A DNA stretch of 64,000 nucleotides from Kiloniellales bacterium (GTDB taxonomy: Bacteria; Pseudomonadota; Alphaproteobacteria; Kiloniellales; JAKSDN01). The stretch is from contig JANQLT010000030.1 in the NCBI GenBank assembly GCA_028280455.1, positions 62,001-126,000 on the forward strand. The letters are read 5' to 3'. Under the pieces are notes generated by a model. It did no database searches and had not been told where the DNA came from. It saw only the letters and a list, made by a program, of their open reading frames with translations. Positions 7,200-51,138 of this stretch are shown in pieces (position 1 is the stretch's first letter; every line of letters begins with the position of its first letter). A program made the position numbers and the translations under genes.

Positions 7200-7979
7200 A
7201 TGAGCAGCAGCGACAGCAAGATCGCCGTCGAGGGCCTGGCCAAGAGCTTCGGCGACAACAGGGTCCTGGAGGACGTCAGCTTCTCGCTCGACGCCGGCGA
7301 GTCGCTGGTGCTGTTCGGCACCTCGGGCAGCGGCAAGTCGCTGGTGCTCAAGTGCATCCTCGGCCTGATCCCGCCCGACGGCGGCTCGGTGCGCATCGAC
7401 GGCGCGGAGACGACCCACGCCGGCGGCCGCGCGCACATCGAGCTGATGGACCGCATCGGCATGCTGTTCCAGTACTCCGGCCTGTTCGACAGCCTGCCGA
7501 TCTGGGAGAACGTCGCCTTCCAGCTCACCCACTACCGCGGCATGGGCCGTAAGCAGGCCCGCGAGATCGCCGTGGCCAAGCTCGCCGCCGTCGGCCTCAA
7601 GCCGGAGACCGCCGACCTCTTTCCCTCGGAGATCTCCGGCGGCATGCAGAAGCGCGTCGGTATCGCCCGGGCCGTCGCGATCGATCCCAAGATCCTGTTC
7701 CTCGACGAGCCGACCGCCGGCCTCGACCCGATCATGAGCAACCGGATCAACGAGCTGATCCTCCAGGTCATGGAGGAGCTGGGCGCCACGGTCATCTCGA
7801 TCACCAGCGACATGCGCTCGGCCCGGCAGATCTCCAACCGGATGGCCATGCTGCACGACGGCCGGATCATCTGGACGGGCCCGACCGACCAGCTCGATCG
7901 GTCGGGCAGCGAGCACGTCCATCAGTTCGTCAACCAGCTCGCCGAGGGCCCGATCAAGATGCGGGTGCGCGCGGCTTGA
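7200..7979 (+). CDS. MlaF-type ABC transporter ATPase (orphan)
   Basis: 259 residues, starting 7 bp after the MetF-like gene. ABC motifs: Walker A GTSGSGKS (40-47), Q-loop FQYSGLFDSLPIWENVAF, signature ISGGMQKR (145-152), Walker B ILFLDEPTAGLDP (165-177). The Q-loop text and the late motif match MlaF ATPases, which drive phospholipid trafficking with the permease MlaE and the MCE protein MlaD. Neither partner is adjacent. The switch-region His, normally in a THDM motif, is Ser203 here (ITSDMRSAR), a change expected to weaken ATP hydrolysis. The C-terminus ends with a short tail after LAEGPIKM. Confidence 0.85.
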   Translation: MSSSDSKIAVEGLAKSFGDNRVLEDVSFSLDAGESLVLFGTSGSGKSLVLKCILGLIPPDGGSVRIDGAETTHAGGRAHIELMDRIGMLFQYSGLFDSLPIWENVAFQLTHYRGMGRKQAREIAVAKLAAVGLKPETADLFPSEISGGMQKRVGIARAVAIDPKILFLDEPTAGLDPIMSNRINELILQVMEELGATVISITSDMRSARQISNRMAMLHDGRIIWTGPTDQLDRSGSEHVHQFVNQLAEGPIKMRVRAA

Positions 7980-8043
7980 GCCGGGCGGCCGAGGCCCGCC
8001 GACAGGCCGCGAGCCCTCGCTAGGTCACGGATAGGTTCCCAGG

Positions 8044-9945
8044 ATGTGCGGCATCGCCGGATGGCTCTCCTGGCAGCGGCCGCCGGAACGCGCGGCGGTC
8101 GCGGCCATGACCGAGGCCCTGCAGCACCGCGGGCCGGACGGCGGCGCGGTCGAGGCGCTCGGCCCCGTCGTGCTCGGCCACCGGCGCCTGGCGATCATCG
8201 ACCCGCGGCCCGAGAGCGACCAGCCTTTCGCCGACCCGCCGCGGCGCTGCTGGCTGAGCTTCAACGGCGAGATCTACAACTTCCGCGACCTGCGGCGCGA
8301 TCTCGAGGCGCGCGGCGTCGCCTTCCGCACGCAAGGCGACACCGAGGTCGTGCTCGAGGCCTACAAGGCCTGGGGCGAGTCCTTCGTCGAGCGGCTGGTC
8401 GGCCAGTTCGCCCTGGCGATCTGGGACGCCGGGCAGGACCGCTTGCTGCTGGCCCGCGACCGCGCCGGCGAGAAGCCGCTGTTCTACCAGTGGCTCGACG
8501 ACGGCGGCCTGGTCTTCGCCTCGGAGCCGGGCGCCCTGCGCCGGCATCCCGCGGTCGACCGCGCCATCGATCCGCTGGCGCTGGCCGAGTACCTGGCGCT
8601 CAACTACGGCATCGGCGCGCGGACCTTGAGCCCCTCGGTGAAGCGCCTGCCGCCGGCCCATGTCATGACCGTCGAGCGCGACCGGCCGCCGCGCCTCGAG
8701 CGCTATTGGGACCCGGCCGGCGCCTTTCGCAACAAGCGGGCTTTCGCCTCCGAGGCCGCGGCGGCCGAGGAGCTGAACGCCCTGCTCGACCAGGCCGTCG
8801 CCGGCCAGATGATCAGCGACGTGCCGCTCGGCGCCTTCCTCTCCGGCGGCATCGACTCCTCGGCGGTGGTCGCCTCGATGACGCGGCTGCGGCCGCCGGC
8901 CGAGGTGCAGTCCTTCTCCATGGGCTTCACCGAGAAGAGCTACAGCGAGCTGGCCGAGGCCGAGCGCGCCGCCAAGCATCTCGGGGTCGACCACCGCGAC
9001 CGCCTGGTCTCGCCCGAGCCGGCCCAGGTCATGACCGCCCTGGTCCGCGCGGCCGACGAGCCCCTGGCCGACAGCTCGGCGGTGCCGATGTACTACCTGG
9101 CGGCCCACGCCCGGGAATCGGTGACGGTGGTGCTCTCCGGCGACGGCGGTGACGAGTGCTTCGCCGGCTACGAGACCTATCTGGCCGACCGGCTGCATGC
9201 CTTGCTCCGCCATCTGCCGCGCGCGGTGACCCGCGGCCTGACCGGCGCCGTCGAGCGGCTCTGGCCGGTCAGCCACGACAAGGTCAGCTTCGACTACAAG
9301 CTGCGCCGCTTCCTGCACGGCCAGGCCCTGCCGCCGCGCGAGGCGCATCTCTCCTGGCGCTCGATCTTCGACCCGGCCGAGCGCCTGGCGCTGATGCAGC
9401 CGGACTGGCGCGCCGCCGTCGCGGCGGCGGCCGACGAACCGCCGGCCGAGGCCCTGCACCACTTCGAGGCCGTGGCCGACTGCCACCCCCTGGACCAGGC
9501 CCTCTATGTCGACTTTATGACCTGGTTGCCGGGCGATATCCTGGTCAAGGTCGACCGCATGACCATGGCCCACTCCCTGGAGGCGCGGGCGCCGTTCCTG
9601 GACCACCGCCTGGTCGAGTTCGCCGCCGCCCTGCCGACCGCCTGGAAGCTCAAGGGACTGCGCATGAAACACCTGCTCAAGCAGAGCCAGCGCGCGCGCC
9701 TGCCGGCCTGGCTGCTGGAGCGGCGCAAGCAGGGCTTCAACGCGCCGATCTCGGGCTGGCTGCAGGGTCCGCTGGGCGAGCTGGCGCGTGACGCTTTGGC
9801 CGCGCCGGCGATGGCCGCCTGGTTCCGGCCGGAAGAGATCGAGCGGCTCTGGGAGGAGCATCGCGCCAAGCGGCGCGACAACGGCCTGCGTCTGCTCTCG
9901 CTGCTGTCGGTGGCGCTCTGGCTGGAGGGACTGCGCGCGTCATGA
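8044..9945 (+). CDS. asnB: Asparagine synthase (glutamine-hydrolysing)
   Basis: 633 residues, full length. The N-terminal Ntn glutaminase has catalytic Cys2 (MCGIAGW), LGHRRLAIID and FNGEIYN. The C-terminal synthetase has the PP-loop LSGGIDSS (about 270) and VVLSGDGGDECFAGYE. It makes asparagine or an amidated analogue from Asp, Gln and ATP. AsnB of this length next to a methyltransferase and a dolichol-phosphate-mannose-type glycosyltransferase is common in polysaccharide and secondary-metabolite loci, so amidation of a sugar or peptide is an alternative to housekeeping asparagine synthesis. It overlaps the next gene by 4 bp. Confidence 0.93.
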   Translation: MCGIAGWLSWQRPPERAAVAAMTEALQHRGPDGGAVEALGPVVLGHRRLAIIDPRPESDQPFADPPRRCWLSFNGEIYNFRDLRRDLEARGVAFRTQGDTEVVLEAYKAWGESFVERLVGQFALAIWDAGQDRLLLARDRAGEKPLFYQWLDDGGLVFASEPGALRRHPAVDRAIDPLALAEYLALNYGIGARTLSPSVKRLPPAHVMTVERDRPPRLERYWDPAGAFRNKRAFASEAAAAEELNALLDQAVAGQMISDVPLGAFLSGGIDSSAVVASMTRLRPPAEVQSFSMGFTEKSYSELAEAERAAKHLGVDHRDRLVSPEPAQVMTALVRAADEPLADSSAVPMYYLAAHARESVTVVLSGDGGDECFAGYETYLADRLHALLRHLPRAVTRGLTGAVERLWPVSHDKVSFDYKLRRFLHGQALPPREAHLSWRSIFDPAERLALMQPDWRAAVAAAADEPPAEALHHFEAVADCHPLDQALYVDFMTWLPGDILVKVDRMTMAHSLEARAPFLDHRLVEFAAALPTAWKLKGLRMKHLLKQSQRARLPAWLLERRKQGFNAPISGWLQGPLGELARDALAAPAMAAWFRPEEIERLWEEHRAKRRDNGLRLLSLLSVALWLEGLRAS

Positions 9946-10649
9946 CCGCGGCCAGCGACGAGACCTATTCCTCGGCGATCGCCGAGGCGCAGAACTACAC
10001 CGCCTGGGTGGTCGAGGCCTTCCGGCCCTACTACGGCCAGCGCCTGCTCGAGGTCGGGCTCGGTCACGGCGGCTACCGCGCGGCGCTGCCGGCGCTGGAG
10101 CGCTACGTCGGCGTCGACATCGATCCGGCGGCGATCGAGGCCATGCGCCGCCGCCATCCGGGCGACCGCTTCCTGGCCGGCGACATCACCGACCCCGGCC
10201 TGGCCGGCGCGCTCGCCGAGGAGCGGCTGGACAGCGTGCTCTGCGTCAACGTGCTGGAGCACGTCGAAGAGGACCAGCGGGCCGTCGCCACCCTGCTCGG
10301 CGCCCTGCAGCCGGGCGGCCACCTGCTGCTCTTCGTGCCGGCCTTCGGCGCCCTCTACAACGACCTGGACCGCATGGCCGGCCATATCCGCCGCTATCGC
10401 CGCAACGACCTGCAACGCCTGTTGCCGGGCGAGGGCGCAGCGCTGGTCGAGGCGCGCTACTTCAACGCGGTCGGCGGGCTCGGCTGGTGGCTCAACGGCT
10501 TCGCCCGCCACCGCTCGCTGAACGACGAGGGCGTCAACCGGCAGATCGAGGTCTTCGACCGCTACGTGCTGCCGGTCTCGCGGAGGCTCGACCCGCTGGT
10601 CCGCTGGGCCTTCGGCCAGTCCCTGGTCGCCGTGGTGCGCAAGCGATGA
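9942..10649 (+). CDS. Class I SAM-dependent methyltransferase
   Basis: 235 residues. SAM-binding motifs: RLLEVGLGHGGYRAAL (about 34-49), YVGVDIDP, FLAGDITDP, SVLCVNVLEHVEEDQRAV and LQPGGHLLLFVPAF. The NVLEHVEED stretch and the RRYRRNDL segment are typical of methyltransferases next to sugar transferases in surface-glycan clusters. Starts by ATGA overlap with asnB and ends by ATGA overlap with the glycosyltransferase, so the three are translationally coupled. The methyl acceptor is unknown. Confidence 0.85.
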   Translation: MTAASDETYSSAIAEAQNYTAWVVEAFRPYYGQRLLEVGLGHGGYRAALPALERYVGVDIDPAAIEAMRRRHPGDRFLAGDITDPGLAGALAEERLDSVLCVNVLEHVEEDQRAVATLLGALQPGGHLLLFVPAFGALYNDLDRMAGHIRRYRRNDLQRLLPGEGAALVEARYFNAVGGLGWWLNGFARHRSLNDEGVNRQIEVFDRYVLPVSRRLDPLVRWAFGQSLVAVVRKR

Positions 10650-11506
10650 TCTCCATCGTCATCCCGGCCTACAACGAAGGCGGTGCCATCGTCGGCACCA
10701 TCGCCGCCCTGCGCGACACGGTCGAGCGCGCCGGCCTCGAGTCGGTCGAGATCCTGGTGGTCGACGACGGCTCCTCGGACGAGACCGCCGCCTTCGCCGA
10801 GTCCGAAGGCGCGCGCGTGATCCGCCATCCGATCAACGTGGGCTACGGCCGGGCGCTCAAGTCCGGGATCCAGGCGGCGCGCCACGACACCATCGTCATC
10901 ATGGACGCCGACCTGACCTATCCGGCGGAGGCGATCCCGCGCCTGCTGGAAGAATACCGCAAGGGCTTCGACATGGTGGTCGGCGCGCGGCGCGGCGCCC
11001 ACGTCAACACGACGCCCTTCAAGGGGCCGCTGCGCCGGCTGCTCAAGGCCATGGTCGAGTTCGTCGCCGAGCGGCCGATCCCCGACGTCAACTCGGGCCT
11101 CCGGGTGTTCAGCAAGGCGACCATCGAGGGCTACCTGAAGCACCTCTGCGACACCTTCAGCTTCACCACCTCGCTGACCCTGGCCTACATGCTGACCGGC
11201 CGCTTCGTCGGCTACCTGCCGATCGCCTATCACGAGCGGGTCGGCCGGACCAAGGTGCGCATGCTCTGGGATTCCCTGCGCACCCTGCAGTACATCGCCC
11301 AGGCGGTGATCTACTACAACCCGCTCAAGCTCTTCGTCCTGGTCAGCGGCCTCTTCGTGGTCTTCTCGCTGGTCAGCTTCCTGGTCGGCGCGATCACCAC
11401 GATCGCCGCCTTCTACTACTTCGGCATCATCGGCATCCTGATGGCTTTCATCATGTTCGGCATCGGGCTGCTGGCCGACCTGCTGCGCCAGATCATGGCC
11501 AAGTGA
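10646..11506 (+). CDS. Family 2 glycosyltransferase, DPM1/DPG-type
   Basis: 286 residues. GT-A fold: ISIVIPAYNEGGAIVGTI at the N-terminus, LVVDDGSSDET, VGYGRALKSGI, and the DxD-type IVIMDADLTYPAE (about 91-103). Two C-terminal membrane segments (LFVLVSGLFVVFSLVSFLVGAI and a following IGILMAFIMFGIGLLADLL) anchor it. This layout is that of polyprenyl-phosphate mannosyl/glucosyltransferases that load a lipid carrier with one sugar at the inner membrane. The start ATG lies inside the stop of the methyltransferase. The next gene's GTG overlaps its stop. Confidence 0.88.
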   Translation: MISIVIPAYNEGGAIVGTIAALRDTVERAGLESVEILVVDDGSSDETAAFAESEGARVIRHPINVGYGRALKSGIQAARHDTIVIMDADLTYPAEAIPRLLEEYRKGFDMVVGARRGAHVNTTPFKGPLRRLLKAMVEFVAERPIPDVNSGLRVFSKATIEGYLKHLCDTFSFTTSLTLAYMLTGRFVGYLPIAYHERVGRTKVRMLWDSLRTLQYIAQAVIYYNPLKLFVLVSGLFVVFSLVSFLVGAITTIAAFYYFGIIGILMAFIMFGIGLLADLLRQIMAK

Positions 11507-11991
11507 CCGCCGTGCCGGCGCGCGCCCTCGACCATTGGGACGAGCGCTTCCTGGCCCTGGCGGCGCACATCGCCGGCTGGTCGAAGGACCCCAGCACCAA
11601 GGTCGGCTGCGTCATCGCCAGCGCCGACCGGCGGGTGGTCTCGACCGGCTTCAACGGCCTGCCGAGCGGCGTCGAGGACAGCATCGAGCGCCTCAGCGAC
11701 CGCGACCTCAAGTACGAGATGACCATCCACGCCGAGCGCAACGCCATCATCAACGCCCGGCGCGACCTGACCGGCTGCCGGCTCTACGTCACCCTGCAGC
11801 CTTGCAGCGTCTGCGCCGCCATGATCATCCAGGCCGGCATCGCCGAGGTGATCGCCCCGCCCTGCACGGACCCCCGGCTCGCCGAGACCTTCAACCTGGC
11901 CCTGACCGAACAGATGCTCGCCGAAGCCGGCGTCGCGCTGCAAAGCCTGGCGCTGGACCACTCACCAGGGCCGCAAGGCCACGGCGGTTGA
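11503..11991 (+). CDS. dCMP deaminase-family protein
   Basis: 162 residues, GTG start overlapping the previous stop (GTGA). Zinc deaminase motifs: HAERNAI (catalytic His and Glu) and PCSVCAAMI (two Cys ligands). DPSTKVGCVI and the STGFNGLP segment match the deoxycytidylate/ComEB-like deaminases, which give dUMP from dCMP. Within a glycan-type operon it may act on another nucleotide. It ends the asnB operon. A 207-bp gap follows before the MttB genes. Confidence 0.85.
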   Translation: MTAVPARALDHWDERFLALAAHIAGWSKDPSTKVGCVIASADRRVVSTGFNGLPSGVEDSIERLSDRDLKYEMTIHAERNAIINARRDLTGCRLYVTLQPCSVCAAMIIQAGIAEVIAPPCTDPRLAETFNLALTEQMLAEAGVALQSLALDHSPGPQGHGG

Positions 11992-12198
11992 TACAAACCA
12001 AAGCGCTACAAACTGGGCCGTTGAGGCCCCGCGCCCCCATGGGCGCGAAGCCTAGGGCGCGGATGCGCCCGCCCGGCGTCTGAGGGCCTTCACGAAAAAT
12101 GCCGCTACCGTGCTAGTGGGGGGCGGGTAGCCATCAGTGCCGGGGGGCGTGGGGCCGCTAGGCTTCGCGGCGGTGCCGAGGGATGGGGAGGCGAATCG

Positions 12199-13746
12199 AT
12201 GGCGCAGGCGAGGCGCCGACGCCGGGCCGAGCGCCCGCGCGGGGGCGGGGCGGCGATTCCGCGGCTGCCCTGGCGCAAGCTGCGCAATCCCTTGCCGCCC
12301 ATCGAGGTGCTCAGCGCCGACCAGGTCGAGGCGATCCACGAGGCTTCGCTGCAGGTCCTGGCCCGCGCCGGCATGAAGGTGACCGACGACGAGGCCCGGG
12401 CCCTGCTGCGGTCCGCCGGTGCCGAGGTCGACGAGGCCGAGCAGATGGTCCGCTTCGATCCCGGCCTGGTCGAGGAGAGTGTCGCCAAGGCGCCGGCCGA
12501 GTTCACGATACGGGCGCGGAACCCCGCGAAGAACGCCACCATCGGCGGCAACCATGTCAACTTCGCGCCGGTCGGCGGGCCCTCCTTCGTCTCCGACCTG
12601 GACCGCGGCCGGCGCGCCGGCACCCTGGCCGAGCTGGCCGACTTCATGAAGCTGGTGCAGTGCTTCGACGTGATCTCGGTGGCCGGCGTCAGTCCCTTCG
12701 AGCCGCTCGACCTGCCGCCCCAGACCCGCCACCTCGACACCTACGAGGCCGTGCTTCGCTGGACCGACAAGGTCTGGAGCACCTGGCTGCTGGGTGCCGG
12801 CCGGGCGCGCGACGGGATCGCGATGGCCGCCATCGTCCACGGCCTGACCCCGGAGCAGGTCGCCGCGCAGCCGCTGACCTACGGCAACATCAACACCAAC
12901 TCGCCGCGCCTGATCGACGGGCCCATGGCCCAGGGCGCCATGACCTTCGCCCGGGCGCGCCAACCAGTGATCGTCACGCCCTTCACCCTGGCCGGCGCGA
13001 TGGCCCCGGCCACCGTCGCCGGTGCCCTGGTCGAGCAGAACGCCGAGGCCCTGGCGGGCATCACGCTCGTGCAAGTGGCCAGCCCCGGCGCGCCGGTGAT
13101 CTACGGCGGCTTCACCTCGAACGTCGACATGAAGACCGGCGCCCCCGCCTTCGGCACGCCCGAGCAGACCCAGGCGGCGCAGGCGACCGGCCAGCTCTGC
13201 CGGCGCTACGGCCTGCCCTACCGCTCCTCCAACACCAACGCCTCGAACTGCGCCGACGCCCAGGCGGCCTACGAGAGCGAGATGTCGCTCTGGGGCGCGG
13301 TCATGGGCCACGCCAACCTGATCTTCCATTCCGCCGGCTGGCTCGAGGGCGGCCTGACCGCCTCCTTCGAGAAGCTGATCATCGACGTCGAGATGCTGCA
13401 GATGCTGAGCGAGTACCTGCAGCCGGTCGTGGTCGACGAAGACACGCTCGCGGTCGAGGCCATCGCCGGGGTGCCGCCGGCCGGCCACTACTTCGGCGAG
13501 GCCCACACCCTGGCGCGCTACGAGACGGCCTTCTACAGCCCGCTGGTCTCCGACTGGCGCAACTTCGAGACCTGGAGCGAGGACGGCGGCCGCGACGCGG
13601 CGCAGCGCGCCAACGCCATCTGGAAGCAGCTCCTAAAGGACTACGAGCCGCCACCACTCGACCCGGCCGTCGACGAAGAGCTCACCGCCTATGTCGCCAA
13701 GCGCAAGGAAGCGATCGGGACCAGTGACGATGCCGTCGATCGCTAG
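12199..13746 (+). CDS. Trimethylamine methyltransferase (MttB) family protein, copy 1
   Basis: 515 residues, ATG preceded by GGGGAGG. This is an MttB-superfamily (COG5598) TIM-barrel methyltransferase: LSADQVEAIHEASLQVLARAGMKV at the N-terminus, GGNHVNFAPVGGPSFVSDLDRGRR, YGNINTNSPRLIDGPM, SNTNASNCADAQAAYES and HSAGWLEGGLTASFEK. Archaeal MttB carries pyrrolysine at an in-frame UAG. Here the frame is read through with no internal stop, so this belongs to the non-Pyl branch, whose characterised members demethylate quaternary amines such as glycine betaine and pass the methyl group to a corrinoid protein. No corrinoid protein or RamA-like activator is nearby. The N-terminal 20 residues are Arg-rich and probably disordered. 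Confidence 0.88.
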   Translation: MAQARRRRRAERPRGGGAAIPRLPWRKLRNPLPPIEVLSADQVEAIHEASLQVLARAGMKVTDDEARALLRSAGAEVDEAEQMVRFDPGLVEESVAKAPAEFTIRARNPAKNATIGGNHVNFAPVGGPSFVSDLDRGRRAGTLAELADFMKLVQCFDVISVAGVSPFEPLDLPPQTRHLDTYEAVLRWTDKVWSTWLLGAGRARDGIAMAAIVHGLTPEQVAAQPLTYGNINTNSPRLIDGPMAQGAMTFARARQPVIVTPFTLAGAMAPATVAGALVEQNAEALAGITLVQVASPGAPVIYGGFTSNVDMKTGAPAFGTPEQTQAAQATGQLCRRYGLPYRSSNTNASNCADAQAAYESEMSLWGAVMGHANLIFHSAGWLEGGLTASFEKLIIDVEMLQMLSEYLQPVVVDEDTLAVEAIAGVPPAGHYFGEAHTLARYETAFYSPLVSDWRNFETWSEDGGRDAAQRANAIWKQLLKDYEPPPLDPAVDEELTAYVAKRKEAIGTSDDAVDR

Positions 13747-13851: not shown

Positions 13852-15438
13852 ATGAGCGGCGGGCCTGCCAGAGGCAGGCGACGCGGCCGCGAGCGCTCCA
13901 GCGCCGGGCAACGGCGTGAAGCGCTGCGTGCCGGTGGCGGCACTGCGACGCTGCCGCAACGGCCCTGGAAGACCCTCCGCAACACCCGCCCGCCGCTGGA
14001 AGTCCTGAGTGCCGACCAGCTCGAGGCCATCCACCGCGCCTCGCTGCGCGTGCTCGCCGAGGCCGGCATCAAGGTCACCGACGCGGAGGCCCGCTCGCTC
14101 TACAAGGGCCTCGGCGCCGAGGTCGACGAGGCCGAGGAGATGGTCCGCTTCGACCCGGCCCTGATCGAGGCGCAGGTCGCGCTGGCGCCGGCCGAGGTGA
14201 CGATCGAGGCGCGCAACCCGGCGCGCTCGGTCACCCTCGGCGGCAACCACGTCAGCTTCCAGAGCGTCAGCGGCCCGGCCTTCGTCTCCGACCTGGCGAA
14301 GGGCCGGCGCGCCGGCACCTACGCCGAGCTCTGCGACTTCGTGCGCCTGGTGCAGCAGCTCGACTGCCTGCACCTGGCCAGCAGCGCGCCCCTGGCCTCG
14401 CTCGACCTGCCGGCGCAGAGCCGCCACCTGCACGGCTACTACGCCTGCGCCCGCTACACGGACAAGGCCTGGAACGCCTCGCTGCTCGGCCGCGGCCGGG
14501 CGCGCGACGCCATCGAGATGGCCGCCATCGCCCGCGGCCGGACGGCCGAGGAAGCCGCCGGCACGCCCATGGTCCACGGCAACATCAACAGCAACTCGCC
14601 GCGCCTGCTCGACGGGCCCATGGCCCAGGGCGCCCTCGAGTTCGCCCGCCACGGCCAGGTCGTGGTGGTGACGCCCTTCACCCTGCTCGGTGCCATGGCA
14701 CCCTCGACCCTGGCGGGCGCGCTGGTCCAGCAGAACGCCGAGGCCCTGGCCATGGTCGCCCTGGTGCAGGCCGCGGCGCCGGGCGGCCCGGTGGTCTACG
14801 GCGGCTTCACCTCCAACGTCGACATGAAGTCGGGCGCGCCTGCGTTTGGCACGCCGGAGTACACCAAGGCCGTGCACGCCACCGGCCAGCTCTGCCGCCG
14901 CTACGGCCTGCCCTACCGCTCCTCCAACACCAATGCCTCGAATTGCGTCGACGCCCAGGCGGCCTACGAGAGCGCCATGTCGCTCTGGGGCGTGGTCATG
15001 GGTCACGTCAACCTGGTCAACCACGCGGCCGGCTGGCTCGAGGGCGGCCTGGTCTGCTCCTTCGAGAAGCTGATCCTCGACGCCGAGATGATCCAGCTCA
15101 TGTCCGCCTACCTCGACCCCCTGCCGGTCGACCCGGACAGCCTCGCGGTCGAGGCCATCGTCGAGACCCCACCCGCCGGCCACTACTTCGGCTCGGCCCA
15201 CACGCTCGCCCGCTACGAGACCGCCTTCTACGAGCCGATCCTCTCCGACTGGCGCAACTTCGAGACTTGGAACGAAGACGGCGCCAAGACCGCCGCCGAA
15301 CGCGCCCACGCGATCTGGCAGCAATTGCTCGCGGCGTACGAGCCGCCGCCGATGGACCCGGCCATCGACGAGGCGCTCAAGGCCTACATCGCCAAGCGTG
15401 AGGAGGAGCTGCAGAGCGCGGATGCGATTGAAAGGTGA
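13852..15438 (+). CDS. Trimethylamine methyltransferase (MttB) family protein, copy 2
   Basis: 528 residues, a tandem paralogue of the preceding gene with the same motifs (LSADQLEAIHRASLRVLAEAGIKV, GNINSNSPRLLDGPM, SNTNASNCVDAQAAYES, AAGWLEGGLVCSFEK) and the same ending (YEPPPMDPAIDEALKAYIAKR). There is no internal UAG, so it is non-pyrrolysine. The copies differ at many positions, so this is not a recent duplication; they may act on different methylamines or as a heteromer. The Arg/Gly-rich leader (about 35 residues) has no alternative ATG, so the start at 13852 is taken although the only purine-rich site lies in the upstream hairpin. Confidence 0.87.
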   Translation: MSGGPARGRRRGRERSSAGQRREALRAGGGTATLPQRPWKTLRNTRPPLEVLSADQLEAIHRASLRVLAEAGIKVTDAEARSLYKGLGAEVDEAEEMVRFDPALIEAQVALAPAEVTIEARNPARSVTLGGNHVSFQSVSGPAFVSDLAKGRRAGTYAELCDFVRLVQQLDCLHLASSAPLASLDLPAQSRHLHGYYACARYTDKAWNASLLGRGRARDAIEMAAIARGRTAEEAAGTPMVHGNINSNSPRLLDGPMAQGALEFARHGQVVVVTPFTLLGAMAPSTLAGALVQQNAEALAMVALVQAAAPGGPVVYGGFTSNVDMKSGAPAFGTPEYTKAVHATGQLCRRYGLPYRSSNTNASNCVDAQAAYESAMSLWGVVMGHVNLVNHAAGWLEGGLVCSFEKLILDAEMIQLMSAYLDPLPVDPDSLAVEAIVETPPAGHYFGSAHTLARYETAFYEPILSDWRNFETWNEDGAKTAAERAHAIWQQLLAAYEPPPMDPAIDEALKAYIAKREEELQSADAIER

Positions 15439-32319: not shown

Positions 32320-33582
32320 TTGACCGTCGTCGAGATGACTCAGCCGGTGGGCGGCGAACGCGAGCGGCTGCACAACCCGCATGTCCAGACCCTGCGCGTG
32401 CCGAACCTGAGCGAGATCGACTTCAAGCAGCTCCGGGCCGGCCGCCTCGCGCGCCTGCAGGCCATGATGGCCAAGCACGACATCCCGGTCTGCCTGTTCT
32501 ACAACCCGGCCAACATCCGCTACGCGACGGGCACCGAGGTGATGGGCGTCTGGACCGCCACCACCCTCGCCCGCTACAGCCTGGTGCCCGCCGAGGGCAA
32601 GCCGATCCACTTCGAATACGCCAACTCGGCCCACGTCTCGCGGAAGTTCGTCGAGGACGTGCGGCCGGCCGATAGCTGGCAGTACGGCGCCACCGAGGGC
32701 CTGGAGCGCGCCAAGCGCTGGGCGGCCGAGATCAAGTCGGTCATGGCCGAGCTCGGCTGCGCCGGCGAGCCCCTGGCCGTCGACAAGCTCGACGGCTACG
32801 GCTTTCTGGCCCTGCAGTCGCAGGGCATCGAGATCGCCGATCCGAGCCCGGCGACCGTCGACGCCCGCGAGGTCAAGACGCCGGAAGAGGTCCAGCTCAT
32901 GATCCTCAACGGCGTGATCGGCGACGCCATGATGGCCGAGTTCGAAGCCGCCATCGCGCCCGGCAAGCGCGAGTACGAGCTGCTCGCCGTGCTCAACGAC
33001 TCGCTGTTCCGGCACCACGGCGAGTTCATGTTCACCCGCCTGGTCGCCAGTGGCACCAACACCAACCCCTGGATGTCGGAGGCCCACGACAAGATCGTCC
33101 AGCCGGGCGACCTGGTCGGCATCGACACCGACGCCAACGGCTACGAAGGCTACGTCATCGACTTCTCGCGCACCTTCCTCTGCGGCGACAAGGCGACCGC
33201 GGGCCAGAAGGAGGCCTACCGCATCTCCTACGACTGCGTGAACGGCATGCGCGAGCTGATGCGCCCGGGCATGACCTTCGACGAGTTCGCCCACCGCGCG
33301 CCCCAGCTTCCCGAGGGCTACCGCAACCTGCGCTATAGCTGCATGGCGCACCAGGCCGGCCTCGAGGACGAGGGCCCGGGCATCCCCTACACCTACACGG
33401 ACCAGAAGGTCGACAAGGACATGAGCGACCGGGAGATCCAGGAGAACATGGTGTTCTGCCTGGAGTGCTACGCCGGCAAGGAAGGCGCGCCCTACGGCGT
33501 CAAGCTGGAGGACCAGGTGCTGGTCACCGCCAACGGCGCCGTGCCGCTCTGCACCTACCCCTTCGAGAAGAAGCTGCTCTAA
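32320..33582 (+). CDS. M24 metallopeptidase-fold enzyme, DddP-like
   Basis: 420 residues from a TTG at 32320 with GGAAAGGAGA 7 bp upstream; the ATG at 32335 is too far from that site. Creatinase/pita-bread fold with all six metal ligands: D269 and D271 (GIDTDANG), D281 (VIDFSRTF), H344 (CMAHQAGL), E382 (CLECYAG), E397 (VKLEDQVLV). TNTNPWMSEAHD, GLEDEGPGIPY and the ending CTYPFEKKLL follow DddP, the M24-family DMSP lyase, more closely than Xaa-Pro aminopeptidases. Cleavage of DMSP to acrylate and DMS is thus possible, but ectoine or peptide hydrolases share the fold. No DMSP gene neighbours. Confidence 0.82.
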   Translation: MTVVEMTQPVGGERERLHNPHVQTLRVPNLSEIDFKQLRAGRLARLQAMMAKHDIPVCLFYNPANIRYATGTEVMGVWTATTLARYSLVPAEGKPIHFEYANSAHVSRKFVEDVRPADSWQYGATEGLERAKRWAAEIKSVMAELGCAGEPLAVDKLDGYGFLALQSQGIEIADPSPATVDAREVKTPEEVQLMILNGVIGDAMMAEFEAAIAPGKREYELLAVLNDSLFRHHGEFMFTRLVASGTNTNPWMSEAHDKIVQPGDLVGIDTDANGYEGYVIDFSRTFLCGDKATAGQKEAYRISYDCVNGMRELMRPGMTFDEFAHRAPQLPEGYRNLRYSCMAHQAGLEDEGPGIPYTYTDQKVDKDMSDREIQENMVFCLECYAGKEGAPYGVKLEDQVLVTANGAVPLCTYPFEKKLL

Positions 33583-33614: not shown

Positions 33615-33835
33615 CTCACCCTTCGTCAGGCTCACCCTTCGTCAGGCTCACCCTTCGTCAGGCTCACCCTTCGTCAGGCTCAGGGTGAGGGTGAAGGTGA
33701 GCCCTATCGGCAATCAAACCTCACCCTAAGGGTGAAGGTGAGCTCTGTCGGTAGTTCGACCTCATCCTGAGTTTCCTCATCCCGAGCTTGTCGAGGGACA
33801 AAGGATGTCGTGGTCAAGGTCTCAGGACTTCTTCA
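33615..33835. repeat. Tandem 16-bp repeats and degenerate palindromes
   Basis: Four exact tandem copies of CTCACCCTTCGTCAGG (33615-33678), followed by CTCAGGGTGAGGGTGAAGG and degenerate copies of CTCATCCTGAG and CCGAGCTTGTCGAGGGACAAAGGATG up to about 33835. These parts belong to the widespread GAAGGGTGAGG / CTCACCCTGAG intergenic repeat type. The region fills the gap between the convergent M24 and VOC genes. Frames crossing it have no coding character. Confidence 0.8.
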
Positions 33836-41604: not shown

Positions 41605-41655
41605 TTTTTGGCACGGAAAAGCAAGAAGAGCTCAGCCTGCAGGGAGGAGAACGAC

Positions 41656-42933
41656 GTGCGTCGTTACCTGAAAACAGGCCCCAAGACGGAAGACGGCGAG
41701 GCCCTGCAGCGCGTCGAGGAGAGGGTCCGCGCGATGCTCGCGCATCTCCGCCAGGAGCGCGACGCGGCGGTCAGGGCCTACGCCGAAGAGCTCGACGGCT
41801 GGGTCCAGCCCTTCCGCGTCCAGCGCGCGCAGATCGACGCCGTCGCCACGCGCCTGCCCGAGACCTTCAAAGAGGACTTCGCCGTCTGCCAGCAGCAGGT
41901 CCAGGACTTCGCCCGCCGCCAGCTCGACTCCCTGATCGAGATCGAGGCCGAGGTCGGCCCGGGCATCACCCTCGGCCATCGCCACATCCCGGTGCGCAAC
42001 GTCGGCTGCTACATCCCGGGCGGCAAGTATCCCCTGGTCAGCGCGGCCATCATGTCGGTCGGCACGGCGCGGGTCGCCGGCGTGTCCCACGTCATCGGCT
42101 GTGCCCCGCCGCGCGATGCCGACGGCATCTTCGCCCCGACCCTCTACGCCTTGGACGCTGCCGGCGCCGACGAGATCTACTGCCTCGGCGGCGTCCAGGC
42201 CCTGGCCTCGATGGCCCTCGGCTGCGTCGGCATGACCGCCGTCGACATGATCACCGGCCCCGGCAACCCCTATGTCGCCGAAGCCAAGCGCCAGCTCTTC
42301 GGCACGGTCGGCATCGACCTGCTGGCCGGGCCCACCGAGATCCTGATCATCGCCGACGACAGCGCCGATCCCAAGCTGGTGGCGACCGACCTGCTCGGCC
42401 AGGCCGAGCACGGGCCCGACAGCCCGGCCTGGCTGGTGACCACTTCAGAGGCGCTCGGCAACCAGGTCATCGCCGAAGTCGAGCGCCAGCTCGAAGGCCT
42501 GCCGACCAAGGACATCGCGGCGCGCTCCTGGCGCGACTTCGGCGAGGTCGTGCTGGTCGAGAACGACGACGAGGCGATCGCCGTCAGCGACGACTACGCG
42601 CCCGAGCACCTCGAGGTCATGACCGCGCGCAACGACTACTTCCTCGCCAAGCTGCGCAACTACGGCAGCCTCTTCGTCGGCGAGGAGACGACGGTCGCCT
42701 ACGGCGACAAGGGGATCGGCACCAATCACACGCTGCCCACGGGCAAGGCCGCCCGCTACACCGGCGGCCTCTGGGTCGGCAAGTTCATGAAGACGGTCAC
42801 CTACCAGCGCATGACGCCCGAGGCGAGCGCCGGCTTCGCGCCGGTCGCCTCGCGCCAGTGCGAGACCGAGTCCCTGCTTGCCCACAAGATAACCGCCGAC
42901 GTCCGTATCGACCGTTACGGCGACGGCAACTAG
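41656..42933 (+). CDS. HisD-family dehydrogenase, HpsN-like
   Basis: 425 residues from a GTG at 41656 with AGGGAGGAG 6 bp upstream. Histidinol-dehydrogenase fold: VRNVGCYIPGGKYPLVSAAIMS, MITGPGNPYVAEAKRQLFG, GIDLLAGPTEILII, zinc-site GQAEHGPDS, catalytic DYAPEHLEV, YGDKGIGTNHTLPTG and the final ETESLLAHK. Zinc and catalytic positions are kept. A lone HisD paralogue under LacI control next to an ABC importer is unlikely to make histidine. Sulfopropanediol 3-dehydrogenase HpsN belongs to this branch and oxidises the imported C3-sulfonate with NAD+. The exact substrate is not proven by sequence. Confidence 0.87.
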   Translation: MRRYLKTGPKTEDGEALQRVEERVRAMLAHLRQERDAAVRAYAEELDGWVQPFRVQRAQIDAVATRLPETFKEDFAVCQQQVQDFARRQLDSLIEIEAEVGPGITLGHRHIPVRNVGCYIPGGKYPLVSAAIMSVGTARVAGVSHVIGCAPPRDADGIFAPTLYALDAAGADEIYCLGGVQALASMALGCVGMTAVDMITGPGNPYVAEAKRQLFGTVGIDLLAGPTEILIIADDSADPKLVATDLLGQAEHGPDSPAWLVTTSEALGNQVIAEVERQLEGLPTKDIAARSWRDFGEVVLVENDDEAIAVSDDYAPEHLEVMTARNDYFLAKLRNYGSLFVGEETTVAYGDKGIGTNHTLPTGKAARYTGGLWVGKFMKTVTYQRMTPEASAGFAPVASRQCETESLLAHKITADVRIDRYGDGN

Positions 42934-43024
42934 GCGATGCGGAGGTAAAGGCACAAGGAGCGCGTCGATGCCCCCAGCCAGCGAGAGCGGATCGGCGCCA
43001 AGACAACGACAAGGGAGGAACTCG

Positions 43025-44512
43025 ATGCCCAGCGGTAACGGAAACAACAGCGGCAAGACTCGCCGGCGTTTCTTGCAAGGAACGGCGGCCACGGCCGGAC
43101 TGGCCGCCCTCGCCCCGTCGTTCATGATGCGGCCGCGGCGGGCGAGCGCGGCGACCCTGGACGACGTTCACATGGAAGCAGCCAAGGCGGCCAAGGAGCT
43201 GGCAGCCGGGCGCAGCGTCACCCTGACCATCATGCAGCCCTCCGGCTCGCTCGGGAACGTCAAGCCGGTGGCCGACAAGTTCACCGAAGAGACCGGCATC
43301 GCCATCGAATACGTCGAGGTGCCCCTCGGCGAGATCAATCAGAAGGTGCTTCTGGAGGCGGTCTCCAAGACCGGCTCCTTCGACATCGCCCTGCCGGCGA
43401 CCTTCGGCATCCCGGACCTGGCGGAGTCCGGCATCCTGGTCAATCTCGACCAGTATGCCGCGAAGCACGAGCCGGAGGACATGCAGCAGGACGCGCTCTA
43501 CGCCACCGGCGACTACTACAAGGGCAACCTCTACGGCTATCAGACCGACGGCGACACCTACGTCATGTTCTATCACAAGGACTGGCTGGAGAACGCCGAC
43601 GAGAACAAGGCCTTCTCCGACAAGCACGGCTACGCGCTGAAGGTGCCGGACACCTGGGAAGAGCTCGACGCCATGATGGCCCACTTCCATCGGCCCGATA
43701 AGGGCATGTACGGCGGCGCGCTGTTCCGCACCCAGTTCTTCATCGCCTGGGAGTGGTGGGTCCGCTTCCACGCCAAGGGCTACTTCCCGCTCGACGACGA
43801 CCTCAATCCGCAGATCAACAACGATGCCGGCGTCAAGGCGCTGGAAGAGCTGGTGGCCGCCTCCAAGACCCTCTACCCGGGCGCCCGCACCAACGGCCTG
43901 TTCGAGAACTTCGAGGCCTTCGGCGAAGGCGACAAGTTCTGCAACATCGGCTGGGGCGGCACCCAGAAGTTCCTCAACAGCGACAAGTCGAAGATCAAGG
44001 GCCGCATGGCGCACGGGCCGACGCCGGGCGGCATGGTCGACGGCAAGCTGATCAAGACGCCCTACTTCAACTGGGGCTGGAACTACGTGGTCTCCTCGGT
44101 CAGCCCCGAGCCCGAGATCGCCTACCTCTTCACGCTCTATGCCTGCAGCCCGGCCATGTCGACGGTCGCCGTGCGCGATCCCGGCGGCTACTTCGATCCC
44201 TTCCGCGGCGCCCACTACAAGGACGCCAAGATCACCGAGACCTACAGCAAGCCCTTCCTGGATGCCCACGAGGACTCCATGCGCAACTCGATCCCCGACC
44301 TCTACCTCAAGGGCCAGGGCGAGTACTTCGACGAGCTGCGGGTCAATCTCACCGCCGCCGACGTCGGCGAGAAGAGCCCCAAGGAGGCGCTCGACGACAC
44401 GGCCGCCGCCTGGACGCGCATCACCCGTCGCATGGGCAAGCGCAGCCAGAAGGTGCAGTGGGATTTCCTCAAGTCGATCTATCCTGCGGGCGTGCGGGAC
44501 ATTCTGACCTGA
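43025..44512 (+). CDS. Extracellular solute-binding protein (Tat-exported, CUT1-like)
   Basis: 495 residues from the ATG at 43025 (CAAGGGAGGAA upstream). A Tat signal is visible: RRRFLQGTAATAGLAAL, cleavage near ASAAT (about residue 45). The family-1 substrate-binding fold follows (VTLTIMQPSGSLGNVKPVADKFTEETGIAIEYVEVP, FDIALPATFGIPDLAESGILVNL, GYQTDGDTYVMFYHKDWLENA). The Trp/Phe-rich AWEWWVRFHAKGY and YFNWGWNYVVS probably line the binding cleft. It delivers the substrate to the permeases just downstream. Export through Tat implies cytoplasmic folding, uncommon but not rare in alphaproteobacteria. Confidence 0.9.
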   Translation: MPSGNGNNSGKTRRRFLQGTAATAGLAALAPSFMMRPRRASAATLDDVHMEAAKAAKELAAGRSVTLTIMQPSGSLGNVKPVADKFTEETGIAIEYVEVPLGEINQKVLLEAVSKTGSFDIALPATFGIPDLAESGILVNLDQYAAKHEPEDMQQDALYATGDYYKGNLYGYQTDGDTYVMFYHKDWLENADENKAFSDKHGYALKVPDTWEELDAMMAHFHRPDKGMYGGALFRTQFFIAWEWWVRFHAKGYFPLDDDLNPQINNDAGVKALEELVAASKTLYPGARTNGLFENFEAFGEGDKFCNIGWGGTQKFLNSDKSKIKGRMAHGPTPGGMVDGKLIKTPYFNWGWNYVVSSVSPEPEIAYLFTLYACSPAMSTVAVRDPGGYFDPFRGAHYKDAKITETYSKPFLDAHEDSMRNSIPDLYLKGQGEYFDELRVNLTAADVGEKSPKEALDDTAAAWTRITRRMGKRSQKVQWDFLKSIYPAGVRDILT

Positions 44513-44576
44513 GGACGTAACGGCGGCGGGCGGCCCGCGACCGCCAGGGCCCCCGCCGCGCATCTCGAGCCTGCCG

Positions 44577-45506
44577 ATGGCCCAAGAGTCTCTCGATGCC
44601 ACAGCCATGAAACAGGCCGCGCCGCCCCGTCGGCGCGGCCTGCCCTTCAACGTGGCCCTGGTGCTGCCGGCCCAGCTCACGGTACTGGCGGTGGTGCTCT
44701 GCCCGACCCTGATCGTGCTCTGGCTGTCGATCACCGACTGGCAGCCGACCAGCGGCGTGACCTGGTACCAGGCCGAGCCGGTCTGGCATTGGAACTTCTA
44801 CGACCTCTATTTCGACGACCGCTTCATCGGCGCCCTGCTGCGCACGATCCTGGTGGTCTGCGTCTGCGTCGCCCTGGAGCTGGCCATCGCGATCGGCCTG
44901 GCGCTGCTGTTCCTCGAGGAGTGGCCCTGGCGCAAGCTGGCGGTCAGCGCCGTCATCCTGCCGATGATGATCGTCCCGGTCGACGCGGCCAATGCCTTCT
45001 TCATGCTGTTCAACGAGCGCGGGCCGATCAATCACATCATCAGCCTGGTGATCGGCGAGGCCTTCGAGTTCTCCTGGCTGGCCGATCCGGACTGGGCCCT
45101 GCTGCCGATCATGCTGGCGGAGATCTGGCAGTGGACGCCGCTGATGTTCCTGCTGGTGCTGACCGGCCTGATGAACCTGCCGGAGAACCAGATCCGCGCC
45201 GCCATCGTGCTCGGCGCCTCGCCGGCGCGGATCTTCTTCCGGGTCATGCTGCCGCTGATGGCGCCGGTGATCGCCATCGCCCTGCTGGTCCGCTCGATCG
45301 AGACCTTCAAGATCTTCGACCCGGTCTACATCCTGACCCGCGGCGGGCCGGGCGCGGCCACCGAGACGATCTCGATGTTCATGTACAACGGCGCCTTCGT
45401 CTATTTCCGCATGGGCTACATCGCCGCCGCCGGCCTCCTGGTGCTGATCGTGGTGATCTCGATCTGCCTGGCGCTGTCCAAGCCGCTGAAGCGGCACCAC
45501 GGGTGA
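44577..45506 (+). CDS. Sugar-type ABC transporter permease
   Basis: 309 residues, six membrane segments, MalF/UgpA-type (CUT1). The coupling EAA motif appears as AAIVLGASPARIFFRVMLPLMAPVI (about 210-235), and ITDWQPTS forms a periplasmic loop near the start. With the second permease it makes the translocation channel. It is 64 bp from the binding-protein gene and 7 bp from the next permease. Confidence 0.9.
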   Translation: MAQESLDATAMKQAAPPRRRGLPFNVALVLPAQLTVLAVVLCPTLIVLWLSITDWQPTSGVTWYQAEPVWHWNFYDLYFDDRFIGALLRTILVVCVCVALELAIAIGLALLFLEEWPWRKLAVSAVILPMMIVPVDAANAFFMLFNERGPINHIISLVIGEAFEFSWLADPDWALLPIMLAEIWQWTPLMFLLVLTGLMNLPENQIRAAIVLGASPARIFFRVMLPLMAPVIAIALLVRSIETFKIFDPVYILTRGGPGAATETISMFMYNGAFVYFRMGYIAAAGLLVLIVVISICLALSKPLKRHHG

Positions 45507-45513
45507 GGCGGCC

Positions 45514-46401
45514 ATGAGCAGCGACAAGCCCTGGCTGGTGGTCCTCAAGCGCTCGGCGGTCATCCTCTCCATGGTGATCGCCTTCTTCCCGATCTTCTGG
45601 CTGGTCTCGACCTCCCTCAAGCCCTTCGACGAGTGGGCCAACTGGCCGCCGATCTGGATCACCGACCGGCCGACCCTGCAGAACTACCGCATCGTCTTCT
45701 TCCCCGAGGCGGCGCGGGAGTTCGCGGCGGCCCAGGAAGGCTCGCTCGACTACAAGGTCTCCGGCAGCGCTTGGAAGTCCTTCCAGGACTCCGCGATCAT
45801 CTCGACCCTGGCGACCTTCTTCTCGGTCGTCTTCGGCACCCTGGCCGCCTACTCCGTCGTGCGCTTCCGCACCGGCGGCGAGAACTACCCCTTCCAGTTC
45901 CTGACGGTGCGCATGTTCCCGCCGATCGCCGTGGTCGTGCCGATGGTCGCCATGTTCTCGGTCCTCAAGCTCTCCGACACCTACTTCGGCCTGATCCTCG
46001 CCTACACCGCCTTCACCCTGCCCTTCAGCATCTGGATGATCCGCAGCTTCATCGAGGATGTGCCCGCCGAACTGGAGGGCGCGGCGATGATCCACGGCAT
46101 GGGCCAGTTCAAGGCCTTCCTGACGGTCACCCTGCCGCTGATCCGCGGCGGCGTGCTCTCGACGGCGCTGTTCATCTTCATCCTGAACTGGTCGGAGTTC
46201 CTCTTCGCCCTGGTGCTGACCTCCGGCGACGTGGTGACCATCACCATCCAGGTCGCCAACTACGTCTCGGCCAGCTCGGGCAAGCTCTACGGCGTGCAGG
46301 CCGCCATGGGCTCGGTCTCGACGCTGCCCGTCATCCTGTTCGGCTACATCATCCAGCGCCACCTGGTGCGTGGCCTGACCTTCGGCGCAATCAAGCGGTA
46401 G
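45514..46401 (+). CDS. Sugar-type ABC transporter permease
   Basis: 295 residues, MalG/UgpE-type CUT1 permease with six membrane segments. The cytoplasmic loop motif EGAAMIHGMGQFKAFLTVTLPLIRGG (about 187-212) contacts an ATPase. A large periplasmic loop (ITDRPTLQNYRIVFFPEAAREFAAAQEGSLDYKVSGSAWKSF) follows the first span. It pairs with the previous permease; the next gene starts 4 bp later. Confidence 0.9.
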   Translation: MSSDKPWLVVLKRSAVILSMVIAFFPIFWLVSTSLKPFDEWANWPPIWITDRPTLQNYRIVFFPEAAREFAAAQEGSLDYKVSGSAWKSFQDSAIISTLATFFSVVFGTLAAYSVVRFRTGGENYPFQFLTVRMFPPIAVVVPMVAMFSVLKLSDTYFGLILAYTAFTLPFSIWMIRSFIEDVPAELEGAAMIHGMGQFKAFLTVTLPLIRGGVLSTALFIFILNWSEFLFALVLTSGDVVTITIQVANYVSASSGKLYGVQAAMGSVSTLPVILFGYIIQRHLVRGLTFGAIKR

Positions 46402-46405
46402 GGCC

Positions 46406-48594
<2,189 letters not shown>

Positions 48595-49824: not shown

Positions 49825-51024
49825 CTAGTCCGGCGCCCCCGCGCGGATCCAGGCGCCGAGCAGGGCGCGCTCCTCCCCGGTCATGCCGGTCTCGTTGCCG
49901 AGCGGCATGACGTCGCTCAGCACCGTCTGCGCCAGAACCCGGGCGGCGTGGCTGCGCAGTTGGTCCGGCGCGTCGAACATGACACCGCCGGGCGCCTCCT
50001 CGAAGGACTCGTGACTCGGCGCCGCCGAGTGGCAGTTGACGCAACGCGCCTGCACGACGGCGAAGGCTTCGGCGGCGCTCGGCGTCTCGGCTAGCTCGCC
50101 ACTGCCTGGGCCGCCGAGCCCGACCGCCGTGAAGCCGACCAGGCCGAGCGCCACCGCCGCCGCCGCCGGGAACTGCCAGGCGATCGCCAGGCCGCCGCCG
50201 CCGCTGTTGCGCGTGTTGAAGAAGTGCCGGATCACGGCGCCGAGCAGGATCACGCCGGCGACGATGACCCAGGCCTGGGGATGGCCGTAGCTCATGGGGT
50301 AGTGGTTGCTGATCATCATCAGCAGCACCGGCAGGGTCAGGTAGTTGTTGTGGGTCGAGCGCTGCTTGGCCTGCAGGCCGAGCGCCGGCTCGGGCTGCTT
50401 GCCGGCGAGCATCGCCGCCACCGCCTTCTTCTGATTGGGAATGATCACGAAGAAGACGTTGCCCGCCATGATCGTGCCGAGCATGGCGCCGACATGGATG
50501 AAGGCCGCCCGGCCGCTGAAGACCAGGCCGAGACCGTAGGCGGCGGCGACGGAGAAGACGAAGACCAGGATTGCCAGGAGCGTCGTGTTGCGGCCGAGAG
50601 GCGAGCGGCAGAGCAGGTCGTAGGCGATCCAGCCGCCGGCCAGGAACGCGAGGCTGATCAGGATCGCCGCCCAGGGCTCCAGCGCCAGCACGCGCGGATC
50701 GATCAGGAAGGATTCGGCGCCCCAGTAGTAGATCAGCGCCAGCAGCAGGAAGCCGGTGATCCAGGTGAAATAGGCCTCGTACTTGAACCAGTGCAGCTCT
50801 TCCGGCAGCGCCGGCGGCGCGACCATGAACTTGCGCGCGTGATAGAAGCCGCCGCCGTGCACCATCCAGGACTCGCCGGCGACGCCCTCGGGCAGGTCCG
50901 CGCTCTTCTTCAGGCCGAGGTCGAGCCAGATGAAATAGAACGAGCTGCCGATCCAGGCGATGCCGACGATCAGATGCGCCCAGCGCAGCAGCAGGCTCAG
51001 CCACTCGGCCAGCAGGACGTCCAT
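49825..51024 (-). CDS. puuD: Urate hydroxylase PuuD, cytochrome c-fused
   Basis: 399 residues from the ATG at 51024 (an upstream ATG at 51063 adds 13 residues and is less typical). About eight membrane segments: RWAHLIVGIAWIGSSFYFIWLD at the start, YFTWITGFLLLALIYYWGAES, AAFIHVGAMLGTIMAGNVFFVIIPNQKKA, NHYPMSYGHPQAW. The C-terminal 90 residues form a c-type cytochrome with CVNCH haem site and Met ligand in LSDVMPLGNETG. PuuD-type membrane proteins oxidise urate to 5-hydroxyisourate and pass electrons to cytochrome c. Part of the purine cluster to the right. Confidence 0.9.
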   Translation of the reverse strand: MDVLLAEWLSLLLRWAHLIVGIAWIGSSFYFIWLDLGLKKSADLPEGVAGESWMVHGGGFYHARKFMVAPPALPEELHWFKYEAYFTWITGFLLLALIYYWGAESFLIDPRVLALEPWAAILISLAFLAGGWIAYDLLCRSPLGRNTTLLAILVFVFSVAAAYGLGLVFSGRAAFIHVGAMLGTIMAGNVFFVIIPNQKKAVAAMLAGKQPEPALGLQAKQRSTHNNYLTLPVLLMMISNHYPMSYGHPQAWVIVAGVILLGAVIRHFFNTRNSGGGGLAIAWQFPAAAAVALGLVGFTAVGLGGPGSGELAETPSAAEAFAVVQARCVNCHSAAPSHESFEEAPGGVMFDAPDQLRSHAARVLAQTVLSDVMPLGNETGMTGEERALLGAWIRAGAPD

Positions 51025-51138
51025 AGCACTTGTCTCGCAGCCACCAAGCTTTGGGACGCCCATTATGGAACGAGCGCAGCCCTTCTGGATCGACTTTTCT
51101 GAGCCCTAGGTGACAAGCGCCATCGGCGCTCCCAGGTC

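Follow-up and report, generated by a model that had tools for sequence, protein, structure and literature searches.

A DddP-like M24 protein of a Kiloniellales bacterium from a separate, uncharacterised branch outside the DMSP lyase clade

The gene at positions 32320-33582 on the forward strand of the window (the whole stretch of 64,000 nucleotides analysed here) encodes an M24-fold protein that keeps the metal ligands and the proposed catalytic residues of the DMSP lyase DddP. Judged from its sequence, this protein belongs to a separate branch outside the DddP clade, whose function is uncharacterised, and it is probably not a DMSP lyase. The reading that we tentatively favour is that of a two-domain M24-fold enzyme with a DddP-type six-ligand dinuclear site, a member of an uncharacterised clade that would not be a peptidase and may act on a quaternary-ammonium or betaine-like compound. 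We infer, rather than observe, that it would be a dimer, and the same goes for the identity of the metals, the class of the substrate and the choice between elimination and hydrolysis.

The open reading frame is real and confirmed, with the following features at its 5' end.

32320-33582, forward strand: gene of the DddP-like M24 enzyme, 420 codons and a TAA stop, with 12 orthologs at 67-80% identity
32307-32311, forward strand: AGGAG ribosome-binding site, 8 nt 5' of the TTG, read directly
32335, forward strand: alternative start ATG at codon 6, without a clear ribosome-binding site

An earlier note, made from the sequence alone, had the ribosome-binding site select the TTG. The site is indeed well placed, but the choice of start is less settled: since several orthologs (L040, L042 and L049) begin with M.VGG, both the TTG and the ATG are possible starts. 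On the 420-aa protein, the Pfam Peptidase_M24 domain scores 111.1 bits (gathering score 23), far beyond chance, and the Creatinase_N domain gives a weak Pfam match. A recent foreign origin is not supported by composition, as both GC and GC3 of the gene match those of other window genes (GC3 of 0.964 versus 0.937-0.968 in five of them). Just 3' of the gene, at window positions 33615-33678, four head-to-tail copies of CTCACCCTTCGTCAGG can be seen by eye, and after them comes a GGTGAGGGTGAAGGTGAG stretch resembling inverted copies.

With regard to solved structures, the four best database matches are all DddP (4rzy, 4s01, 4s00 and 4b28), with E values from 6e-52 to 1e-48 and 169-180 bits, and the identity to RlDddP is 30.5%. 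As a single sequence the window protein reaches 180 bits to 4rzy versus 60 bits to the best prolidase; with a 13-row profile of its clade, the DddP structures rise to 210-220 bits (best E 6e-64) versus 82 bits. Among the NCBIfam models, the DddP model NF043017 comes first at 238.8-239.5 bits, which is below its equivalog cut-off of 600, and PepQ is next at 61.5 bits; the DoeA models give 32-38 bits, with TIGR02993 at 31.9-32.3 bits versus a cut-off of 613. These scores agree with the earlier view that the protein is closer to DddP than to aminopeptidase P or DoeA. The AlphaFold model is poor (mean pLDDT 61.2, pTM 0.66), and a VIA-align search with this rough model places the four DddP entries first, with Z of 25.8-26.3 versus 23.0 for the next entry and an rmsd of 6.5-7.2. 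Creatinase and DoeA structures stand lower in both the profile and the fold match lists.

The residues of the putative active site were located by alignment as follows.

32551-32553, forward strand: W78, equivalent to W95 of RlDddP (residue alignment)
33073-33075, forward strand: M252, where prolidase 1pv9 has a histidine and DddP has F278
33124-33162, forward strand: stretch with the ligands D269, D271 and D281 (D295, D297 and D307 of DddP)
33334-33336, forward strand: Y339, equivalent to Y366 of DddP
33349-33375, forward strand: ligand H344 and the clade motif HQAGLEDEG
33463-33510, forward strand: stretch with the ligands E382 and E397 (E406 and E421 of DddP)

All six metal ligands of DddP are kept, with D269, D271, D281, H344, E382 and E397 aligning to D295, D297, D307, H371, E406 and E421 of RlDddP, which bears out what had been read from the letters of the sequence. 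The tryptophan and tyrosine positions of DddP, singled out in the earlier note as a check, are occupied by W78 and Y339, and the aspartate by D350, so that no loss of the contact residues is seen; W95 of DddP is the residue that we take to be its sulfur-contacting tryptophan. The six ligands and the counterparts of W95, Y366 and D377 are retained in 13 of the 13 clade members. Within HQAGLEDEG, D350 corresponds to D377 of DddP (the proposed base, a histidine in prolidase), E349 to C376 and G352 to W379. In the profile alignment to prolidase 1pv9, M252 and D350 sit at its two histidines, presumably the catalytic pair. This fits PMC5395565, according to which two M24-peptidase histidines are exchanged in DddP for Asp and Phe, and the sulfur is bound by one Trp, given without a number, and one Tyr. 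The six ligands of DddP are those given by PMC4108388, where Y366 and D377 are put forward as possible catalytic residues. Since both M24-peptidase histidines are replaced, by Met and Asp, the window protein is unlikely to be a peptidase, and the non-peptidase make-up of DddP thus extends to its clade.

Nevertheless, all 13 clade members depart from roseobacter DddP at six positions close to the active-site residues: N91 is replaced by V or I, H98 by T, S or G, F278 by M, V373 by A, C376 by E and W379 by G. The Phe at the F278 position, which is the aligned peptidase-histidine site, is absent and Met stands there in 13 of 13 members; it is also missing from 3 of the 12 near-cut-off DddPs (two with Tyr, one with Met). 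Furthermore, W95 is found in 42, Y366 in 47 and D377 in 43 of the 49 DddP-like proteins outside the DddP rows, the window clade not counted. Because they are common to most of these proteins, the three residues are not diagnostic of DddP, and calling the protein DddP from its ligands, Trp and Tyr was rejected for the same reason. The sister protein L051, which is 46% identical, has an Asn where DddP has D377. The motifs that had been described as DddP-like are so in part: TNTNPW matches TNPW of DddP and the C-terminal end, TYPF, is of the DddP kind, but LEDEGPGIPY also departs from DddP (C to E, W to G).

In a quick IQ-TREE of 86 rows, the window protein and its 12 orthologs form a fork with a support of 92 (99 ignoring ungrouped rows), which is joined with L051 at a support of 97. 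A separate DddP clade of 17 rows, with a support of 99, holds both structures and the higher-scoring NCBIfam matches. In this tree the remaining 65 DddP-like rows, DddP among them, are separated from the window clade and its sister L051. A more careful tree of 49 rows gives supports of 100/98 for the DddP clade (15 rows) and 98/92 for the window clade; in all 200 bootstrap trees, each group sits to one side of a branch. DoeA proteins are a distant outgroup in both trees, and the root of the 86-row tree is soft because they align badly in the C-terminal part, although the DddP and window clades separate irrespective of where the root is placed. The earlier note had named a place outside the DddP clade as a result that would speak against its proposal, and this is where the protein falls in both trees, which were built without the ratified fungal (Aspergillus, Fusarium) and Oceanimonas DddPs. 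According to PMC4108388, FgDddP of Fusarium graminearum lies in the DddP clade and led to DMS production in E. coli while being 32% identical to RdDddP, so that an identity of about 30% does not in itself rule out DMSP activity.

The DddP model recovers six DddP-like proteins in the same genome (C201 with 612.9 bits, C229 with 360.5, C20 with 325.7, C218 with 277.1, C77 with 253.8 and the window protein with 238.8), of which the window protein scores lowest; a seventh match, at 28.5 bits, is another M24 protein. The best of the six, G000:C201:14504-15817 (L014), is above the cut-off of 600, is 53% identical to RlDddP and falls in the DddP clade in both trees. The earlier proposal that the window gene places DMSP cleavage in this lineage is therefore not supported: its separate branch makes it no evidence that the bacterium makes DMS, and if the lineage cleaves DMSP, the C201 gene would be the candidate. 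The genome also carries two separate genes above the DoeA cut-off and 14 MttB-family genes. The model of the DMSP demethylase (DmdA, GcvT-type) has 17 matches in this genome, none above its cut-off of 410 and the best at 375 bits; for 13 of these matches the open frame is at least 797 codons long, a length that would be expected of dimethylglycine-dehydrogenase- or sarcosine-oxidase-type proteins.

Six exact peptide patterns were used to scan genome_contigs, a method that can overlook some orthologs, and gave the 12 ortholog loci. Their sources are Thioalkalivibrio sp. HK1 (L047) and MAGs assigned to the Gamma- and Alphaproteobacteria, Acidobacteria and Actinomycetota, assignments that may be wrong. 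Across a phylum sample of 398 genomes, with at most 4 candidates scored per genome, an ortholog was detected in the own genome only (843 bits, the next at 314), and none was present in a sample of 57 other genomes of relatives, where the best match was 47% identical.

Of the flanking genes tested in the window, two encode an O-acetylhomoserine sulfhydrylase and an ion channel, and those on the opposite strand encode a glyoxalase-fold protein and an MFS transporter. None of them is a gene of DMSP or acrylate use, in line with the earlier note, and no methylated-amine demethylation gene lies within 10 kb of the M24 gene. Further away, tandem MttB-family genes (Pfam MTTB, 667 and 637 bits) are located about 17 kb or more upstream, at 12199-13743 and 13852-15435 on the forward strand. 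At 41608-47503 on the forward strand, a gene for a histidinol-dehydrogenase-family protein precedes genes for a solute-binding protein, a permease and, last, an ABC ATPase; together they may form an operon for the transport and dehydrogenation of a small polar compound. A protein with a Urate oxidase N-terminal domain (436 bits) is encoded at 49828-51063 on the reverse strand.

Methylated-amine demethylation genes, namely of the MttB family, the dimethylglycine-dehydrogenase/sarcosine-oxidase type or the Rieske type, occur at 7 of the 12 ortholog loci and are operon-like in two, these families having been picked after viewing the same loci.

L039 and L040: MttB family and GbcA-like Rieske
L041: M24 gene, then a dimethylglycine-dehydrogenase-like gene after a 12-bp gap; a CoA-ligase-type gene after the pair
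L043: sarcosine-oxidase alpha and beta type, Rieske (456 bits on the GbcA model) and oligopeptide-type ABC transporter; a divergent pair
L044: MttB family, 9 kb away
L045: enoyl-CoA hydratase, M24, MttB family and dimethylglycine-dehydrogenase-like genes on one strand; also oligopeptide-type ABC transporter genes
L049: weak Rieske
L042: oligopeptide-type solute-binding protein only

At the other five loci (L042, L046, L047, L048 and L050) there is no demethylation gene in the sequence covered; L042 and L048 are short, and L046 and L050 are near copies. Eight amine-type neighbours were tested, and none scores above the cut-off of the MttB, GbcA or sarcosine-oxidase model. The neighbours differ between lineages, so no single pathway is fixed by them. 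At L049, a gene for a TauD/TfdA-family dioxygenase (8867-9898, reverse strand) is directly upstream of the ortholog and divergent from it.

As a control, six DddP-clade loci (L101-L105 and L088, the last ending soon after the gene) show no methylated-amine gene. Of a further 14 DddP-like loci not belonging to the DddP clade, 5 have an MttB- or dimethylglycine-dehydrogenase-like gene, weak in L087 and L089 and strong in L098, L099 and L100, the last three having been selected for tandem copies, and 9 have none. At L100, four consecutive DddP-like genes stand beside an MttB-family gene (7423-13702). In a sample of the class, 11 of 96 DddP-like genes, spread over 9 separate places, have a listed MttB-family gene within 10 kb versus 1.7 expected under random placement, and 5 have one within 1.5 kb versus 0.43 expected; of the 15 highest DddP scorers in this sample, 0 lie within 10 kb of one. 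Among relatives, 4 of 100 DddP-like genes are near MttB versus 1.6 expected, so the link is uneven and weak among near relatives. None of the literature matches listed, in the text available, ties DddP-like proteins to MttB or dimethylglycine dehydrogenase (the genome paper PMC4818494 contains both words), and none of them describes a tested inactive DddP homolog.

The kept onium-binding residues and the neighbours of the orthologs lead us to suggest a quaternary-ammonium or betaine-like substrate, most likely a small compound of this kind rather than DMSP. The retained Trp and Tyr would hold its positively charged onium group and the metal its carboxylate, Asp350 may act as a base, as proposed for DddP, and the products could enter methylated-amine demethylation. 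A broader proposal, which we regard as distinctly improbable, takes the whole DddP-like M24 family to be onium lyases or hydrolases for quaternary-ammonium betaines that would work with MttB-type, Rieske and dimethylglycine-dehydrogenase-type demethylases. DddP would then be a sulfonium-specialised branch, and the substrate of the window protein would be a trimethylammonium carboxylate, split by base-catalysed elimination into a tertiary amine and an unsaturated acid, a reading tied to the enoyl-CoA hydratase gene directly upstream in L045 and the CoA-ligase-type gene in L041.

The same neighbours could also be incidental in amine-rich genomes, with the enzyme acting on some other small carboxylate. 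The patchy linkage to amine genes would suit such a case, as would a genome that itself holds 14 MttB-family genes and 17 matches to a GcvT-type model, but the close same-strand spacing in L041 and L045 and the divergent pair in L043 make it somewhat unlikely. Hydrolysis of an osmolyte- or amidine-type C-N bond within methylated-amine pathways, comparable to that of ectoine by DoeA or of creatine by creatinase, would agree with the demethylase and sarcosine-oxidase-type genes adjoining orthologs and with the presence of creatinase and DoeA structures lower in the match lists; given that DoeA is a distant outgroup and that its models score 32-38 bits, it is unlikely.

Quite doubtful is a divergent but genuine lyase of DMSP (or DMSOP), which would work as DddP does despite its place beyond the sampled DddP clade. 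The full metal site and the retained W95, Y366 and D377 speak for it, as does the activity of FgDddP at 32% identity to RdDddP (PMC4108388), and the 600-bit NCBI cut-off may miss real DddPs. Nonetheless, the protein is outside the clade in both trees, its DddP score is the lowest of six in a genome where another of the six passes the cut-off, six positions near active-site residues are changed and no DMSP gene is present among the neighbours tested. An M24B peptidase of the aminopeptidase P or prolidase type, cleaving Xaa-Pro bonds, would account for the M24 and Creatinase_N domains and for the oligopeptide-type ABC transporter genes in L043 and L045, together with the related solute-binding protein in L042. 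It is very unlikely in view of the replacement of both prolidase histidines (M252, D350) and of the 60 bits to the best prolidase versus 180 to DddP.

The main use of these results lies in the caution that they add to dddP calling and in the clue that they give to the origin of DddP. The catalytic residues of DddP alone do not mark a DMSP lyase, as six proteins with such residues occur in this genome and one of them is in the DddP clade; dddP could be over-called where genes are counted with loose cut-offs. The occurrence of some branches near methylated-amine genes leads to the testable idea that DddP arose from enzymes handling nitrogen onium compounds.

Among known systems, Xaa-Pro dipeptidase and aminopeptidase P (1pv9, 1a16) share the pita-bread metal domain with the window protein, but both histidines are replaced and the score is low. 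The ectoine hydrolase DoeA/EutD (TIGR02993), which belongs to osmolyte metabolism, has a similar M24-type fold and is a distant outgroup. Closer are other alphaproteobacterial DddP-like M24 proteins (L002, L003, L005 and L006 in the same genome, others among L026-L038 and L051-L079), which are of the same family, mostly have the same catalytic core and in some cases lie near MttB-family genes; we know of no tested function for such alphaproteobacterial proteins outside the DddP clade. DddP itself (RlDddP 4rzy/4s00/4s01, RdDddP 4b28; NF043017) differs from the window protein, which is about 30% identical to it, lies outside its clade, reaches about 239 bits versus the cut-off of 600, has N91, H98, F278, V373, C376 and W379 replaced and has other gene neighbours in the loci examined. 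Aligned with LCDEWP of DddP, LEDEGPGIPY has the D and the E in common, with C changed to E and W to G. The likeness nonetheless covers the M24 fold over nearly the whole length, the six ligands, W95, Y366 and D377, the TNPW motif, the change of one peptidase His to Asp, and the C-terminal end, which reads TYPF in the window protein, TYPF in 4rzy and KYPF in 4b28.
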